This document shows positions 15,150 through 23,038 of a DNA stretch of 57,527 nt, piece by piece. The position numbers and the translations under genes are program-made. Within the stretch, counting starts at the first letter, position 1. Every line of letters begins with the position of its first letter. The DNA is taken from assembly GCA_027420455.1 (NCBI GenBank), contig DAIBJA010000036.1, positions 1 to 57,527 of the forward strand. Reading direction: 5' to 3'. This DNA comes from Clostridia bacterium (lineage in GTDB: Bacteria > Bacillota > Sulfobacillia > JAJZYS01 > JAJYTV01). The notes under the pieces are model-generated. The model was not told where the DNA came from, did not search any database, and saw nothing but the letters and a program-made list of their open reading frames with translations.

Positions 15150-16808
15150 ATGAAGAGTGTGCGGTCTCTTGGCGGCATCATCGCTGCTGCGAGCATCCTC
15201 CTGGCGCTGACCGGCGGCCCCGCCACCGCCAGCGCGAGCGGTGGTCAAAGCTCCGGCGTCTTCACCATGGACTTCGCCAGCGACTTCCCGACCCTCGACC
15301 CCGCCGTCGTGCAGGACGTCCAGTCCAACATCCCGATGGACGGCATCTACGATGGCCTGGTCACCTATGCGACCAACGGCAACACGGCCAAGATCATTCC
15401 GGATCTCGCCACCTGGACAGCATCGACCGACGGCCTCACCTACACCTTCCACCTCAAGCACGGCATCCGCTTCTCGAACGGCGATTCCCTGACCGCCCAG
15501 GACGTCGAGTACTCCATCAACCGTCTGACGTCGTGGGACGCCACCGGCGCGAACGGCCCGTCTCCGTTCGGCAGCGACTTCTCGGACATCGTGGGCTACA
15601 ACCAGTGGTTCAACAATGGCAAGCAGCCCCCCGCGAGCGTCACGGGGCTTTCGGGCATCACCACCCCGGACCCCTACACGGTCGTGATCAAGCTCTCGGC
15701 CCCGCAAGCCTACTTCCTCAACGAGATGGCGCTGCCGAGCGCCTACATTGTCGACCCCAAGGTCACCCAGAAGTACGGGCCCAACCTCTACGCGCAGCAC
15801 GCGGTCGGCACCGGGCCGTACAAACTCCTCTACTGGCACCAGAACAAGCAGATGGTGCTCGTGCCGAACCCATACTACCAGGGCACCCAGAAGGCGAAGC
15901 TGAACAAGATCATCTTCAACGTGAACGTACCGGCGGCGACCCAGTTCCTGCTCTTCGAGAAGGGACAGGTCGACATGATCTTCCAGCCCGACTCCTCCAC
16001 CTACCTCGCTGCCCTGAACAACCCCAGTGTCGCGAAGACCTACATCAAGAACCAGACAAATGCCGTCTGGTACCTGGCCTACAACGTCACGAAGGCGCCC
16101 TTCAACAACGTCAAGGTGCGTCAGGCCGTCAACCTGGCGATTGACCGCCAGCAGATCCTCAAGCTCGTCAACGGGCGCGGCATCATCGAAACGCAGCTCC
16201 TGCCGCCCGCCATGCCGGCCTACGAGAGCTCCATGAAGGGCTACGCGTACAACCCGACCGAGGCAAAGAAGCTGCTTGCGCAAGCGGGATACCCCAAGGG
16301 CTTCACGATCACCTTGGCCTACACGTCTGCGCGGCCGTTTGTCGAGACCGTCATGCAGAACATCCAGGCGCAGCTCGCCAAGGTCGGCGTCAAGGTCAAC
16401 CTGCACAACATCCCTGAGACCGGCACCTACTGGCCGTACACCATGGACAACTCGCAGAACTGGAACCTCTCCTGGACCGACTGGTGGCAGGACTACCCGG
16501 ACCCCCAGGACTTCATGTTCAACCTCGGCAGCGGCCTCAGTTCCAATGAGACCGGCGGCTGGAAGAACACGCAGTTCGAGAACCTTGTCACCGAAGCCGA
16601 CAACCTCCCCGCCTCGCAGAACGCGAAACGCTGGCAGCTCTACGACCAGGCCCAGCAGATCTGGTTCCAGCAGGCACCCTGGGTGCCGCTCTACTACCCG
16701 GTGTGGGATGCCATGGTGCAGCCGTGGGTCGAGCCGCACAACGTCAACGTCCTCCTGCACCCTGTCATCGGTCCGCAGATCCGCCTGTTCTCGGTGAAGA
16801 GCCACTAA
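15150..16808 (+). CDS. Peptide-type ABC importer substrate-binding protein
   Basis: 552 residues of the SBP_bac_5 family (oligopeptide, dipeptide, nickel). The family motif region reads LTYTFHLKHGIRFSNGDSLTAQDVEYSINRL, with TGPYKLLYWHQNKQMVLVPNPYY further on. The start is the ATG six bases after AAGGAGGT; the track start is 20 codons early. The signal peptide ends in an Ala-rich TASASG-type site and has no lipobox cysteine, so the protein would be released or held by other means, unusual for a Gram-positive binding protein. It lies between two permease genes. Confidence 0.92.
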   Translation: MKSVRSLGGIIAAASILLALTGGPATASASGGQSSGVFTMDFASDFPTLDPAVVQDVQSNIPMDGIYDGLVTYATNGNTAKIIPDLATWTASTDGLTYTFHLKHGIRFSNGDSLTAQDVEYSINRLTSWDATGANGPSPFGSDFSDIVGYNQWFNNGKQPPASVTGLSGITTPDPYTVVIKLSAPQAYFLNEMALPSAYIVDPKVTQKYGPNLYAQHAVGTGPYKLLYWHQNKQMVLVPNPYYQGTQKAKLNKIIFNVNVPAATQFLLFEKGQVDMIFQPDSSTYLAALNNPSVAKTYIKNQTNAVWYLAYNVTKAPFNNVKVRQAVNLAIDRQQILKLVNGRGIIETQLLPPAMPAYESSMKGYAYNPTEAKKLLAQAGYPKGFTITLAYTSARPFVETVMQNIQAQLAKVGVKVNLHNIPETGTYWPYTMDNSQNWNLSWTDWWQDYPDPQDFMFNLGSGLSSNETGGWKNTQFENLVTEADNLPASQNAKRWQLYDQAQQIWFQQAPWVPLYYPVWDAMVQPWVEPHNVNVLLHPVIGPQIRLFSVKSH

Positions 16809-16836
16809 CGAACCTGATGGGGGCGGGCACCGGCTC

Positions 16837-17754
16837 ATGCTGCAGTACATTGCGCGTCGACTGCTCTGGGCGCTTCTGGCCGTCCTGGGAATCAGCGCGA
16901 TCACCTACGTCATCGCGTTCGGAATCCCATCCAACCCCGCCAAGATGATCGCCGGCCAGCACGCCACCGCTGCGACGGTGCACGCGGTCTACATGCAGAT
17001 GCACCTGTATCTGCCCCTCTGGGAGCGCTTCCTCCTCTTCCTCTGGGGGATGCTGCACGGCAACTTCGGCTACTCATACGTCTACCACCGCCCTGTGCTG
17101 GACATGGTCGCCGCAGCGGCTCCCGCGACCATGATGCTGGCGCTGGCGGCCATCACGGCGGAGCTCCTGATCGGCATCCCCGTCGGCATCGTGTCGGCTG
17201 CCCGCAAGGGACGCCTAGCGGATTCCGTTTTGACCATCCTCACGCTCGTCGGCATCTCGATGCCCACCTACTGGGTCGGCATGATGCTGCTCCTCGGGTT
17301 CTCGTTCAAGCTTGGCTGGTTCCCGATGAACGGGTACTCGGCGCTCGGAGTCGTGCTGCCGGCCCTGTCGGTCGGGATTACAGGCTCCGCGTACTATGCG
17401 CGCATCCTGCGCTCCACGATGCTCGAGGTGATGCACCTCGACTACGTCCGCACGGCTCGCGCCAAGGGTCTTGGCGAATGGCGGGTACTGCTGCACCACA
17501 CCGTCCGCAACGCCCTCATCCCCGTCGTCACGATGCTCGGCCTCGACTTCAGTAGCCTGCTCGGGGGCCTGATCGTGTCCGAGGTGATCTTCGGCTGGCC
17601 TGGGCTGGGTCTGTTGGCGAACCAGGCCATCGGCAGCCTCGACGAGGCAGTGATCGAAGGGGTCACCCTCTACGCAGCCATTGCGGTGGTCATCGTGAAC
17701 CTCGCCGTAGACGTCGTCTACGCCTTCCTCGACCCGCGCATCACGTACTCCTGA
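16837..17754 (+). CDS. ABC importer permease, DppB type
   Basis: 305 residues. It opens MLQYIARRLLWALLAVLGISAITYVIAF as DppB proteins do, and has six predicted membrane helices with the EAA loop at ARAKGLGEWRVLLHHTVRNALIPVVT. It pairs with the DppC-type permease upstream. The ribosome site is weak (GGGGGCGGG). No ATPase gene (DppD/F) follows: a strong terminator ends the unit. The ATPases must be encoded elsewhere and shared. Confidence 0.92.
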   Translation: MLQYIARRLLWALLAVLGISAITYVIAFGIPSNPAKMIAGQHATAATVHAVYMQMHLYLPLWERFLLFLWGMLHGNFGYSYVYHRPVLDMVAAAAPATMMLALAAITAELLIGIPVGIVSAARKGRLADSVLTILTLVGISMPTYWVGMMLLLGFSFKLGWFPMNGYSALGVVLPALSVGITGSAYYARILRSTMLEVMHLDYVRTARAKGLGEWRVLLHHTVRNALIPVVTMLGLDFSSLLGGLIVSEVIFGWPGLGLLANQAIGSLDEAVIEGVTLYAAIAVVIVNLAVDVVYAFLDPRITYS

Positions 17755-17776
17755 GCCGGGCGCGCGAGGCCCGCCG

Positions 17777-17807
17777 AAAGACCCGCCGCACGACGCGGCG
17801 GGTCTTT
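17777..17807 (+). terminator. Intrinsic terminator of the importer operon
   Basis: AAAGACCCGCCGC and GCGGCGGGTCTTT form a perfect 13-bp stem with a five-base loop, ending in TTT. It starts about 20 bases after the last permease gene. Confidence 0.85.
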
Positions 17808-17963
17808 CCCATGAGCCTCGATCGCTCGGGATGGAGCGGGGGCAGAACGGTGGCTAAGCTGCCACCACAGCGCTGCCGCCAAGGCGCAACCTTTGTATGT
17901 GTCGAGCCTTTTGCGCTGTGACCGTTTCGCGGCACGAACGGGCGCTCGCTGACGGGCTGGTGA

Positions 17964-19492
17964 AGGTCCTGCCACGTTTGCGGGCGATTCTCGGGCGTAG
18001 GCGCTACGAGAGCGAGGCGTTGTCGGCCGGGCAGGCACGTCAAAGCTGGTCGTGGCCGCCACGGCCCGGCCTGCATCAAGTGGCAGGTTCGACGTGTTCA
18101 GGCGACCAGGCTGCGGATCTTGCCCTTCTCGTGCTCACGGATGTGGCCGATCGCCATGGCCAGCATCACACAGAGCGCGAGGCCCACGCGCATCTTCATC
18201 TTGGCGAGGCCGCGGATGGTGTGCAGTTCAAACCCGAACGAGACATCGAGACGGCTGTTCACCCGCTCCACCGCCGTGCGCTCCTTGTAGAGTCGCTGCC
18301 AGACGTAGCTGGAGCGGTCGATCGGTGTGAAGATGCGCCGGTCGATCGCGAGCGGCACGCGCAGGCCCTTGGCGAGCGGACAGGTATCAAGGGCCCGGCA
18401 CGTGATGCCGCTGTGGCGGGCCGGGCAGAGCTTCTTCAAGGTCATGCGGTCCTTCTCGAAACCGCCGTTGGCCATCCGATGCCTCGTGCCCGTCTCGGGC
18501 GCGTAGCAGTCGACGTTGCCGTGCAGGTCGTAAGTCGCGTTCGCATGGCCCGGCAGGAGCCGCGACGTCTCGCCATCCCGCCAGGAGTTGCGGATGTCGT
18601 GTCGATCACCGGCTTGATGCCGTACTGCTCAAAGAACGTCACCGTCAGATCGGTGTCGTCGTAACCCTTGTCCGCTGTGAGGCTCGCCATGCGCTCAAGC
18701 AGCCAGTGCCTGGCGCTCGTCCATCTGCTGCAGCAAGGCCTTGCCGCCGGGTAGGTCCACCGTACTGGCCTTGGTGACGGCGAAGGCGAGCGACAGATCG
18801 TACACCGTGTCCACCACGAGGTGCAGGCGGTAGCCGAACCAGCGGACGACCTTCTCCCACGCCGTACTGTCCTTGTGCTTACCCTTGTAGCTCTTCTTCC
18901 CGTAGTCCCCATCGGTGTCGCGTCGTCCGTCCGGGACATCGCTGCTCGCCTTGTGCTTGGCGAACGAGGGCAGTGCCTTGCCGTCGAGGGCACCGCGCTG
19001 CCCGAAGCCAGGCAGCAACGTTGCCAGTTCCGCAACCATCCGCTCGAACATGGCGTCGATCTCCTCACCATGCCGGACGACACCATGCAGGAAGCGGGTG
19101 TATGCAGCTGCCGATGGCACGCCGCTGAGCCCGCAGAGATAGCGAAGTTGGCCGTTGCGCCCCAATTCCCGCCGTAGGCTCTCGATGCTCGCATGCTGGA
19201 ACACAATGCCCGCCAGCACCGAGTTCCAGATCGCCCGCACCGGATAATCGTCCCGGCCGTGCCCGCGCAGCACCTCAAGCCTCTCCACCAGCGGCCCGTC
19301 GGGCAGGTATTCAAGCGCTAAACGCAAGCGATCGAGATCGCCCAGGGCCTCACCTTGGTCCCACGCAAAGAGCGGAAGTTGTGGTATGATGGCCATGCAA
19401 GTGAGTCCTTCCTTCGGTAGATTTGGTTGTCTTAGCAACTCCCATTCTACCAGATGGCCTCACTTGTGTCTTTATTGCAGGACCTATATGCA
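17964..19492 (-). mobile_element. Degenerate insertion sequence (IS4/IS5-like), ends tentative
   Basis: A transposase pseudogene fills most of this stretch. The nine-base string AGGTCCTGC occurs at 17964-17972 and inverted at 19484-19492, enclosing about 1.5 kb, a normal size for such elements, but the match does not extend further. The true ends and target duplication are therefore uncertain. Confidence 0.4.
18098..19396 (-). pseudogene. DDE transposase with two frameshifts
   Basis: A full-length IS4/IS5-type transposase is spread over three frames. It starts at ATG 19396 (MAIIPQLPLFAWDQ), with the first Asp region in GALDGKALPSF and the YRLHLVVDTVYDL strand. It shifts frame near 18700 to ERMASLTADKGYDD (second Asp). 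It shifts again near 18600 to the C-terminal YKERTAVERVNSRLDVSFGFELHTIRGLAKMK, the Y-R-E signature. The two shifts each look like single-base changes, so the element is probably inactive unless these are sequencing errors. Confidence 0.85.
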
Positions 19493-19864
19493 GACCCAAG
19501 AGATCAAGGGCATGGGGTGAATCTCATGATCCACCCCATGCCCTCGCTGCAAAACGCCTGCATTCTGCTACCTTACTGGGGTAAACAACTTCTTGCCCTA
19601 TTCGCCAGCCCGCTCCCCGAGCGGATCTCACGACAACGGAATTACCTCGTGTCAAGGGATTCGCCCATCAGACCGGCAAGACCTACCCTCCTGCCTTTCG
19701 AGACGCTGCGCAAGGGGGCCGGGGCGTCCGGCACGATCGAAAGGTCCGCGCTCAGCAGGCGGATGACAGTGGCCGTGAGCCGCAGGCCAATCACATCACT
19801 CACTGCGCGCGGATCTCCTTGCCATTCTGCGCCGGCTACGAGCCGCGGCGGGCCTTTCTGGACG

Positions 19865-20128
19865 TTCCGCAACCGACAGGGCGCGAACCTCTCTGAGGTC
19901 TACGTGCGTCGGCTTGTGAGCGACCTGGCGCATCAAGCCGGGATTCGCAAGACGGTGACGCCGCACGTTCTGAGGCACTCCTTCGCCACGCTGATGTTGA
20001 ACGGAGCCGACCTGCTACGCGTCAAGGAGGACCTCGGCAACGGTTCCCTCTCGACCACGGAACGCTACCTGCACGCAGCCAAGAACCTGGAGCAGGGGAG
20101 CGCAGACTTCCTGCCGTTCGCGGTGTAG
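19865..20128 (+). pseudogene. C-terminal remnant of a tyrosine recombinase (XerC/D-like)
   Basis: The last 87 codons of the track ORF match the end of phage-type integrases: LSEVYVRRLVSDLAHQAGI, then the HxLRH box in TPHVLRHSFATLML, and the nucleophile Tyr in STTERYLHA. The usual LGH before STT is LGN here. The N-terminal half and the first catalytic Arg are absent, and the preceding sequence is unrelated, so it is a decayed fragment marking old integration activity next to the IS. Confidence 0.75.
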
Positions 20129-20146
20129 AAGATCAGCGAGCCAGAT

Positions 20147-20193
20147 AAGAAGATCGGCACGGGTGGCGCCAACGCGCTGCCCGTGCTTCTTTC
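20147..20193 (+). terminator. Candidate terminator after the integrase remnant
   Basis: GCACGGG (20157-20163) pairs with CCCGTGC (20180-20186), with GAAG/CTTC-like extension outside and a TTCTTTCT tail. Confidence 0.5.
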
Positions 20194-20349
20194 TCCGGAC
20201 GTTTTTTGAAGAGTCGGTCTCTGATGCGGCTTTAAGTATAGATGGCCTGAAAAGAGGGCGGAAATGCCGTGGATTTAGGCATTCCCTTTGTAGGTAGAAG
20301 GAGTGGTCACTCTCTACGCCACAGCCTCGTGCAGAAGGGAGGTGCGAAA

Positions 20350-20448
20350 GTGCATCTCATAACCCAGATCGCTCTAGGTATCATTGCCTCGCTGATCGCC
20401 GGATGCCTCATCTTGGGCTTCGAGATCCTAACCGGACTCGTGCATTGA
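20350..20448 (+). CDS. 32-residue membrane peptide 1
   Basis: Too short for the track. GTG start with AAGGGAGGT six bases upstream. The peptide is almost one hydrophobic helix (TQIALGIIASLIAGCLILGF) with a short polar end. It starts Met-His-Leu, as does the second small membrane peptide 220 bases downstream. Length and single helix resemble type I toxin peptides and other tiny membrane proteins of Bacillota. I do not recognise a named family. A perfect AATGCC-N9-GGCATT repeat lies upstream at about 20263-20284. Confidence 0.55.
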   Translation: MHLITQIALGIIASLIAGCLILGFEILTGLVH

Positions 20449-20571
20449 GGAGGAGGAGGTGGCGGCCGATGCGTCACCGAAACTTGGCCACGAGGAGCTT
20501 GCCTCCTTGCGAACTCGCCCCCCGCCGCCTTCCAGCGGCCAGTCCGTCGCAAGACGGAACGACGGGGGGTG

Positions 20572-20676
20572 GTGCATCTGGCCATACACCTGGTCCTGTC
20601 CGTGAAGGTCGCCTTGGCGACAATCGCGTTCGCGGGTACTGTGGTCGCGGCAAGGTCCCGAGCAAAACGAAAGTAG
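20572..20676 (+). CDS. 34-residue membrane peptide 2, candidate toxin
   Basis: A short ORF with one membrane helix (HLVLSVKVALATIAFAGTVV) and a strongly basic tail (RSRAKRK), the usual shape of type I toxin peptides. It starts Met-His-Leu like peptide 1. The ribosome site GGGGGG is very close to the GTG, so translation may be weak or the start may differ. The upstream 100 bases can fold: CCGTC-GCAA-GACGG and CCCCCCGCCG with CGACGGGGGG, the latter hiding the ribosome site. A convergent promoter and hairpin on the other strand suggest an antisense RNA over its 3' end. Confidence 0.45.
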   Translation: MHLAIHLVLSVKVALATIAFAGTVVAARSRAKRK

Positions 20677-20695
20677 CCCGTTCGTGGCGGGCTAC
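20673..20695 (-). terminator. Leftward terminator of the antisense RNA
   Basis: An 8-bp perfect stem (GTAGCCCG with CGGGCTAC) and a seven-base loop. The T-rich tail TTTCGTTTT is on the minus strand, so it is oriented leftward; it overlaps the stop codon of peptide 2. Confidence 0.55.
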
Positions 20696-20745
20696 CTAGC
20701 CGGGAAAACCTAGACAGATCACTCTGCGACGGGTCGGACCGCTGG

Positions 20746-20786
20746 CAACTGGGAGCGTTCTTCTTTGCGGGAGGCGCTCCCGGTTG
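20746..20786 (+). terminator. Rightward terminator-like hairpin after peptide 2
   Basis: CAACTGGGAGCG (20746-20757) pairs with CGCTCCCGGTTG (20775-20786) over 12 bases with one G-T pair, followed by TTCT. A transcript of peptide 2 ending here would overlap the leftward RNA by more than 100 bases. Confidence 0.45.
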
Positions 20787-20816
20787 TTCTATGCGGAAAA
20801 CCGCCTTACTACACAC

Positions 20817-20846
20817 ACAGTACCTACCACCGGCCTTGTATGTCAA
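20817..20846 (-). promoter_or_regulatory. Leftward sigma-A-like promoter
   Basis: TTGACA (perfect -35) and TACTGT (-10 with the key T, A and T) separated by 18 bases, on the minus strand. No protein gene follows leftward; it points at the candidate antisense RNA. Confidence 0.5.
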
Positions 20847-21526: not shown

Positions 21527-23038
21527 ATGCGGGTGGCACTGTACTGCCGAATCTCCACGGATGAGGACCTGCAACGATACTCGCTTTTGAACCAGGAGGC
21601 GTCGTTACGCCGGTACGCCGAAGAACGGGGCTGGGAGATCTCCGGCGTCTTCGTGGATCGGGTCAGTGGCAGCAAGGACAAGCGTCCAGGCCTCAGCCGC
21701 ATTCTCGAGTCGCTGTCGATCGGGGACGCCGACGCGGTAGTGGTCACGGAGCAAGATCGGCTGAGCCGTCTGGACGAGATCCCGTGGGCCCTCCTCAAGC
21801 AAACCTTTCGGGACTCCGGGGCGCGGTTCTTTACCCTGTCGGGCGAAGTGGATTTCCACAACGAGGACGACGAGTTCTCGGCCGACATCATGGCGCTCAT
21901 CGACCGCCGGCGGCGCAAGACCATCGTGAGACAGATGGTTCGCGGCCGGGCGGGAGCGGCCAAGAGAGGGGAGTGGCTAGGACGCCTTCCCTTCGGATAC
22001 CGCAGGAGTCCCGAAACAAAGCATCTTGAGCCTCATCCTGCCGAGTCCCAGATGGTTCGGCAGATCTTTCAGCACTTCAGCCAACAGAAGATGGGCAGCA
22101 TGCGCCTAGCGGCCCTGATGCGGGACCTCATTCCGACAAGACGTGTCGACCAGGCGTTCATCATTCATGTGTTGCGCAACCCGGTATACAGAGGCGACCT
22201 GGTGATGGAGGTCGGTGGGGAAAGCATATGCGTCGAAGGGGCACATGAGCCGATCGTCAGCCGGGATCTCTGGGAGACATGCAACCAGCTAATGAACAGG
22301 AGGAGCGCCGAGAACAAGAAGTCCAGGATCGAGAGCACCGTCGGGCTCGTTGCCGGCATGGTCTACTGCGCCGACTGCGGGCAGATCCTGTCGCCCACCA
22401 CGGCCACGAAACGGGTAGGAGATGAGCTGTTTCGCTACCACTACTACCGGCACGTTCGCCAGCACCGGGACAAGGAGTTGCCTGACGGACGCCTTTGCCG
22501 TGCGGCGCATCGGGCCGAACAGGTAGACGCGAACGTCCGAGCCCAACTGACCCGCATTGCCACCTCGCCGGCCGCAAGGCGCCAGCTGCTCCGCCGCCTG
22601 GGGGACAGCAAGGAGGCAGAGCAGCTCGAAGCGAGGCAGCGGGAATTCAGTGATCAGATTGCGTCCTTGCGCCGAAAGCAGGAGCGACTCCTGCAGCTCT
22701 TCCTCTCGGGGGACTGGGATCGGAGCCGCCTCAACGCGGAGAAGAGAAACCTGGATCGCAGCATCGCGACCCTCGAAGGTGAGCTGAGCGATGTGCAGGG
22801 GAAGCTGCGGCTCGCCCGGGTGGGCGTCTTCAGCCTCGATCTGCTCGCGGAGACGTTCGCGGTGGCGGCGGACATGGCGAGCCTATCCTTCAGCGACCAG
22901 CAAACGGTCGTGCGCGGGCTCGTCGACCGTGTGGAGATCCAGGGCGACGGGCGGGTGAAGGTGATCGCCAAGGTGTCCGTGGCCGCACCTGAGGCAACTG
23001 CGACGCAGTTTGTACACCGTGGCACTGGAGCAGGATAA
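21527..23038 (+). CDS. Large serine recombinase (site-specific integrase)
   Basis: 503 residues. The catalytic domain (about 1-140) starts MRVALYCRISTDEDLQRYSL, with nucleophile Ser10, and has the EQDRLSRL helix. The Recombinase domain (about 150-250) is followed by a zinc ribbon (VYCADCGQ and a later Cys) and a coiled-coil segment rich in Glu/Arg (about 340-420). Such enzymes integrate and excise phages, conjugative elements and sporulation-interrupting elements. ATG start with GGGGAGGGG six bases upstream. All catalytic features look intact. It sits directly upstream of asd, at the right end of the accessory island. Confidence 0.95.
   Translation: MRVALYCRISTDEDLQRYSLLNQEASLRRYAEERGWEISGVFVDRVSGSKDKRPGLSRILESLSIGDADAVVVTEQDRLSRLDEIPWALLKQTFRDSGARFFTLSGEVDFHNEDDEFSADIMALIDRRRRKTIVRQMVRGRAGAAKRGEWLGRLPFGYRRSPETKHLEPHPAESQMVRQIFQHFSQQKMGSMRLAALMRDLIPTRRVDQAFIIHVLRNPVYRGDLVMEVGGESICVEGAHEPIVSRDLWETCNQLMNRRSAENKKSRIESTVGLVAGMVYCADCGQILSPTTATKRVGDELFRYHYYRHVRQHRDKELPDGRLCRAAHRAEQVDANVRAQLTRIATSPAARRQLLRRLGDSKEAEQLEARQREFSDQIASLRRKQERLLQLFLSGDWDRSRLNAEKRNLDRSIATLEGELSDVQGKLRLARVGVFSLDLLAETFAVAADMASLSFSDQQTVVRGLVDRVEIQGDGRVKVIAKVSVAAPEATATQFVHRGTGAG

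Follow-up and report, generated by a model that had tools for sequence, protein, structure and literature searches.

We analysed a window of 57,527 nucleotides (nt) from a Clostridia bacterium of the Bacillota class Sulfobacillia (GenBank contig DAIBJA010000036.1, our contig C13), which belongs to a genome of 1.98 Mb in 87 contigs judged to be 77% complete. The element studied here is a conserved unit at positions 20488-20846 (plus strand), running from a leader hairpin through the −35 box of an antisense promoter (alignments A1 and A6). It carries a gene for a small hydrophobic peptide with a structured leader and a terminator on the plus strand, facing the signals of a convergent RNA on the minus strand. 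A preliminary description, made from the sequence alone, had proposed a type I toxin-antitoxin pair at this place.

The peptide gene, its leader and the predicted convergent RNA

The peptide open reading frame (ORF) occupies 20569-20676 on the plus strand, with a start at GTG 20569 or GTG 20572, or possibly at CTG 20578, and a TAG stop codon at 20674-20676. The 34-residue, one-helix peptide with a basic tail that had been placed at 20572-20676 is indeed encoded there: the product of this GTG frame is VHLAIHLVLSVKVALATIAFAGTVVAARSRAKRK, and the additional in-frame GTG at 20569 would make it 35 residues long. The substitution pattern of the peptide frame shows purifying selection. The frame is kept in 5 other intact copies of the unit, and when five gapless intact frames were pooled the ratio of nonsynonymous to synonymous change (pN/pS) was 0.44 (pS 0.57, pN 0.25), as compared to 1.02 and 1.65 in the other two reading frames; none of 400 column shuffles gave a value as low. 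Conservation of the frame in related genomes had been set beforehand as a test of the proposal, and its outcome favours the proposal. Residues L3, H6, S10, K12, V13, A14, A19 and G22 are invariant, and every peptide combines a single hydrophobic stretch, whose 19 residues average a hydropathy of 2.1-2.4, with a tail of charge +2 to +5, the peptide of the window having values of 2.1 and +5. Neither Pfam, NCBIfam, PHROGs nor PADLOC-DB held a credible match for the peptide, which the preliminary description had likewise failed to recognise; a match to TIGR04207 (E 0.0038) fell under the cut-off of that model and was rejected.

Folding of eight aligned copies with RNAalifold predicts a leader made of a 5' hairpin and then a three-way junction with a closing stem of 12 bp. 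The 5' hairpin (20491-20509, plus strand; CGAGGAG-CTTGC-CTCCTTG, with 7 bp in the window) is kept with a changed sequence in other copies, for example CGAGGGGACAACCCTCG. The closing stem pairs 20516-20527 with 20560-20571 (overall 20516-20571, plus strand) and covers the ribosome site GGGGGG at 20564-20569, for which the predicted fold gives an unpaired probability near 0. Over the alignment, 96.9% of the cells of this stem are paired, and one pair has changed on both sides. The specific pairing of CCCCCCGCCG with CGACGGGGGG, by which the leader had been suggested to hide its ribosome site, was found in the folded transcript. The modelled folds thus support sequestration of the ribosome site in a leader structure conserved in eight copies. 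Downstream of the gene, the rightward hairpin that had been claimed at 20746-20786 lies at 20746-20785 (plus strand); this predicted terminator of the toxin mRNA is the strongest stem in the minimum free energy (MFE) fold of the transcript, and it is conserved and covarying in alignment A5.

On the minus strand, a hairpin over the stop codon of the peptide gene (20697-20671, followed by TCGTTTTGC) bears out the leftward hairpin and tail noted earlier, and is the predicted terminator of the antisense RNA. Its 8-bp core, in which one pair covaries, is present in each of the 11 aligned copies. In the final 15 nt ahead of this hairpin A makes up 52% of the letters, versus 13% in the rest of the frame (nominal P 5e-20, an overstated figure since the copies are related). 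The A-rich codons of the peptide tail are the U-tract of the antisense terminator when read on the minus strand, and therefore the lysine-rich tail serves two ends.

The facing promoter, TTGACA-N18-TACTGT at 20817-20846 on the minus strand, can be read directly (TTGACA at 20846-20841, TACTGT at 20822-20817), as had been stated; a strict sigma-70 scan left it out because its second hexamer is weak. In seven copies, the window included, TTGACA or TTGGCA stands at a similar place together with a TAnnnT-like box, and the best sigma-70-like minus-strand scores behind the unit, summed over 13 copies, reached 110 (shuffle mean 91.5, maximum 99 in 500). From the positions of promoter and terminator, an antisense RNA of about 140 nt (20671-20811, minus strand), the putative antitoxin, is predicted to overlap the 3' end of the toxin mRNA by about 120 nt.

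The toxin mRNA may, in addition, pair with itself over a long distance. A leader arm at 20532-20554 and a 3' arm at 20723-20745 (both plus strand), the latter within the region covered by the antisense RNA, can form 21 pairs; over eight copies 96% of the cells at 22 aligned positions are paired, as compared to 26-40% in slid controls, and one copy (L011) has two compensatory changes. Of 500 letter shuffles, on the other hand, 153 score as high as the pairing does, and the MFE fold is a different one: at −137.2 kcal/mol the paired state lies 7.7 above the free fold (−144.9 kcal/mol). Since neither the shuffles nor a strict alignment separate the pairing from chance in such GC-rich sequence, we regard it as suggestive only.

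Extent, copies and surroundings of the unit

Comparison of flanks revealed that homology between the window and the other full-length copies starts at 20471-20505 and stops at 20765-20825, with unrelated sequence on both sides. Because homology is confined to about 20488-20846, the unit can be delimited as a segment of about 360 bp in unrelated surroundings. The leader, the frame, both hairpins and the −35 box recur in copies whose flanks have nothing in common, which is beyond chance.

The unit is present in 8 of the 10 genomes of its family that we examined, with at most five copies per genome, and was absent from every genome searched outside the family, in a search that covered 154 genomes from the class and 399 from the phylum. 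When 151 relatives were searched by blastn with 20552-20846 as the query, matches came from the genus and the family of the window, genome G007 contributing four copies. The covariance search of the overlapping RNA that the preliminary description had called for, made with a model of the 3' part of the unit (R1), retrieved 13 copies in eight family genomes, with scores between 48 and 134 bits: the genome of the window (G000) has two, G007 has five, and G001, G004, G005, G006, G008 and G009 have one each. The copies of G007 diverge from one another about as much as copies of different species do.

In a ninth family genome (G003) the unit is cut off by a contig end. This contig (C206) is 99.9% identical to positions 15500-20582 of the window (5.1 kb) and breaks inside the unit, and its genome is listed as another species of the genus; the near-identity may reflect mis-binning, a very close strain or an island that was recently shared. 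Being nearly identical to the window, the contig does not count as an independent copy.

Outside the family, weak R1 matches (L033-L035, L043-L046) were rejected, as they had no such peptide frame and several lay within or beside ordinary coding genes; weak matches to the peptide profile, which fell mostly within long frames, were not credited either. A pattern scan of genome contigs retrieved six stretches, read as copies of the unit, in five metagenome-assembled genomes of Bacillota (DX1.bin42 and others), and five further matches in unrelated phyla, left uninspected, whose number is about that estimated for chance. No copy of the unit was found in phage and plasmid records by distant blastn, or in viral contigs by the pattern.

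The neighbours of the copies include transposases, PIN and HepT toxins and a TraG-type ATPase, that is, accessory surroundings, and the window itself carries a phage-type integrase fragment, an insertion sequence (IS) transposase and a serine recombinase. At 18442-20128 an IS transposase (DUF772/DDE), broken so that its parts are in two frames, lies beside the C-terminal fragment of the phage integrase. The large serine recombinase, with resolvase, recombinase and zinc-ribbon domains, is encoded at 21527-23038, directly upstream of genes that by eye appear to be asd, lysC and dapA, and this junction is a possible integration site of the island.

Two copies (L024 at G007:C62 and L032 at G009:C155) consist of the 3' RNA half only, without the peptide; these may be solitary antitoxin-like remnants or simply products of decay. 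At 20350-20448 the window has a second hydrophobic one-helix peptide, MHLITQIALGIIASLIAGCLILGFEILTGLVH, preceded by a good ribosome site (AGGGAGGTG). The stretch given for the module in the preliminary description began with this peptide. We found no relative of it beyond the G003 contig, and as it is in no other copy of the unit, which starts at about 20488, we rejected it as a part.

Relation to known type I systems and competing explanations

Taken together, the sequence-derived features make it likely, and we hold this with considerable confidence, that the unit is a type I toxin-antitoxin module of the txpA/RatA-bsrG/SR4 kind, albeit unrelated to these in sequence. In txpA/RatA and bsrG/SR4 the antitoxin is at the 3' end of the toxin mRNA, with an overlap of 100-140 bp, and the ribosome sites of txpA, bsrE and bsrG are hidden by four or five GC pairs (PMC6562991). 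The unit shares with txpA/RatA, bsrG/SR4 and bsrE/SR5 of Bacillus subtilis the small one-helix peptide and the ribosome site hidden in the leader; the predicted antisense RNA at the 3' end of the toxin mRNA would be a further likeness, its expected overlap of about 120 nt falling within the published range. It differs from all three in that neither peptide nor RNA has a sequence match to them and no sigma-A-type toxin promoter was recognised in the unit; the leader stem, moreover, has 12 bp and is set in a three-way junction, where four or five GC pairs are reported for the Bacillus systems. The likeness to txpA/RatA that had been put forward holds for the layout, and does not extend to sequence membership in Hol_Tox or Rfam BsrG. 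Convergent type I pairs whose toxins have no homology to known ones were described in Clostridioides difficile (CD2517.1-RCd8 and others; PMC6563280); their toxins, of 50-53 residues, are longer than the present peptide, and we liken the two by description only.

Another close comparison is with the Hol_Tox family (PF16935), of which we collected 30 loci from other Bacillota. When read side by side, most of these loci show a leader hairpin CCTCC..GGAGG, a short peptide ending in KK or KRK, a hairpin at the stop codon and a rightward terminator. The same parts are found in the unit, including a peptide in the range of about 25-35 residues, while the pattern [EQ]-x-[LM]-x-LM-x-x-F-[GA] of the compared Hol_Tox members is missing from it. 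Of 27 loci (within L071-L099), 22 had more leader-to-3' complementarity than their shuffles, so that the 5'-3' helix drawn in the Rfam BsrG consensus (RF01412) seems to be general in the Hol_Tox family. The unit has a candidate for such a pairing, located inside the leader stem and not 5' of it.

These parallels raise the question of whether the unit is a true Hol_Tox/BsrG member that drifted past recognition in a GC-rich genome, which would leave it a type I system and would deny it the rank of a separate family. The parts stand in the same order, the leader-to-3' pairing is common to Hol_Tox loci and the BsrG consensus, and R1 has matches in two Hol_Tox loci, L099 at 20.8 bits and L094 at 16.1 bits, each placed exactly behind the ORF. 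The L094 match, however, is equally strong on the wrong strand, so that generic hairpins explain part of it and such matches are weak evidence of common descent. Against membership, none of 6 peptides of the family matched the Pfam profile at E<=10, our own profiles were negative in both directions, and hhalign gave probabilities of 0.4-1.9%; no Hol_Tox was found in 101 relatives. The Rfam BsrG model had no match to the window or to locus L022 even at E<=10, although it detects 5 of 8 scanned Hol_Tox loci (L071, L077, L083, L091 and L099). More generally, Rfam gave no match at gathering score over the window, and only noise for the window and a second copy of the unit even at E<=10. We therefore consider shared descent with Hol_Tox/BsrG rather unlikely, while giving it some weight, and conclude that the family is very probably new by sequence, the convergent BsrG/TxpA kind being already known.

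The peptide might instead be a regulatory small protein, and no toxin, under the control of an antisense RNA, or else a translated leader whose structured RNA is the main product. The lysine in the helix and the strong conservation of the RNA would fit such a role. Intergenic scatter in multiple copies by mobile and other toxin genes, together with the decay of copies, is a better fit to addiction modules than to a fixed regulator, and selection acts on the peptide; we thus find this explanation improbable. A small non-autonomous mobile repeat with an incidental open frame could likewise be scattered over unrelated sites, in as many as five copies per genome and with some of them truncated. 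Coding constraint is nonetheless confined to a single frame, no terminal inverted repeats were seen in the alignment, and the G007 copies are about as distant from each other as copies of different species are, making a repeat of this sort very improbable indeed.

Besides the points on the 5'-3' pairing given above, several observations weigh against a toxin-antitoxin module. No sigma-70-type promoter was recognised upstream of the leader (summed score 59, shuffles 61.7), nor any other significant conserved motif or block there. A conserved lysine lies inside the hydrophobic segment. The SD-like (Shine-Dalgarno-like) GGAGG is only 2 nt 5' of GTG/ATG and 8 nt 5' of the CTG/TTG present in 8 of 9 copies, and the upstream GTG/ATG is missing in two copies; the exact start of the peptide is hence uncertain. 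Finally, the second copy in the genome of the window (G000:C42) has lost its leader and has a one-base deletion in the frame, and further copies (G007:C8, G005, G001, G007:C62, G007:C89 and G009) have likewise decayed, with a shifted frame, a truncation or no peptide, from which it follows that the module is not constantly selected.

A putative antisense-controlled module and its implications

In a type I toxin-antitoxin module, the rightward mRNA of about 300 nt would encode a one-helix basic membrane peptide of 32-35 residues, the putative toxin. Its leader is predicted, from the conserved fold, to form the three-way junction and to bury the ribosome site in the 12-bp stem. The leftward RNA of about 140 nt would start at the conserved TTGACA promoter and terminate at the hairpin that spans the stop codon of the toxin gene. 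By pairing over about 120 nt with the 3' region of the toxin mRNA it may lead to cleavage by RNase III, keep the leader closed, or both, a step that we infer from txpA/RatA and bsrG/SR4; in bsrG the antitoxin induces extension of the stem that hides the ribosome site (PMC6562991).

Much of the mRNA 3' segment which the antisense RNA would cover is, moreover, complementary to the interior of the leader. Plausibly, if unproven, the 3' end would pull the leader open when antisense RNA is lacking, and the leader would stay shut when it is present. An extended form of this idea is that a BsrG-type architecture evolved independently around an unrelated peptide, and that the antitoxin, by capturing an mRNA 3' end that otherwise pairs inside the SD-hiding leader, lets the leader close, an antisense-operated 5'-3' switch. 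This extended form is speculative, and we think it doubtful as it stands. The unit may act as an addiction module of the islands that carry it, or persist as a decaying relic.

Given its recurrence at unrelated sites in related uncultured bacteria, the unit very probably represents a new family within a known toxin-antitoxin kind. It would add to the convergent type I kind a previously undescribed toxin and RNA family, from an uncultured Bacillota lineage, that is absent from Pfam, NCBIfam, PHROGs, PADLOC-DB and Rfam. Two constraints would be of interest in such a family: the basic tail of the peptide appears to owe part of its composition to the antisense terminator, and the 3' end of the mRNA may pair with its own leader. 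As the copies span the range from intact to decayed within a single bacterial family, they offer a tractable set in which the birth and death of type I modules may be followed.
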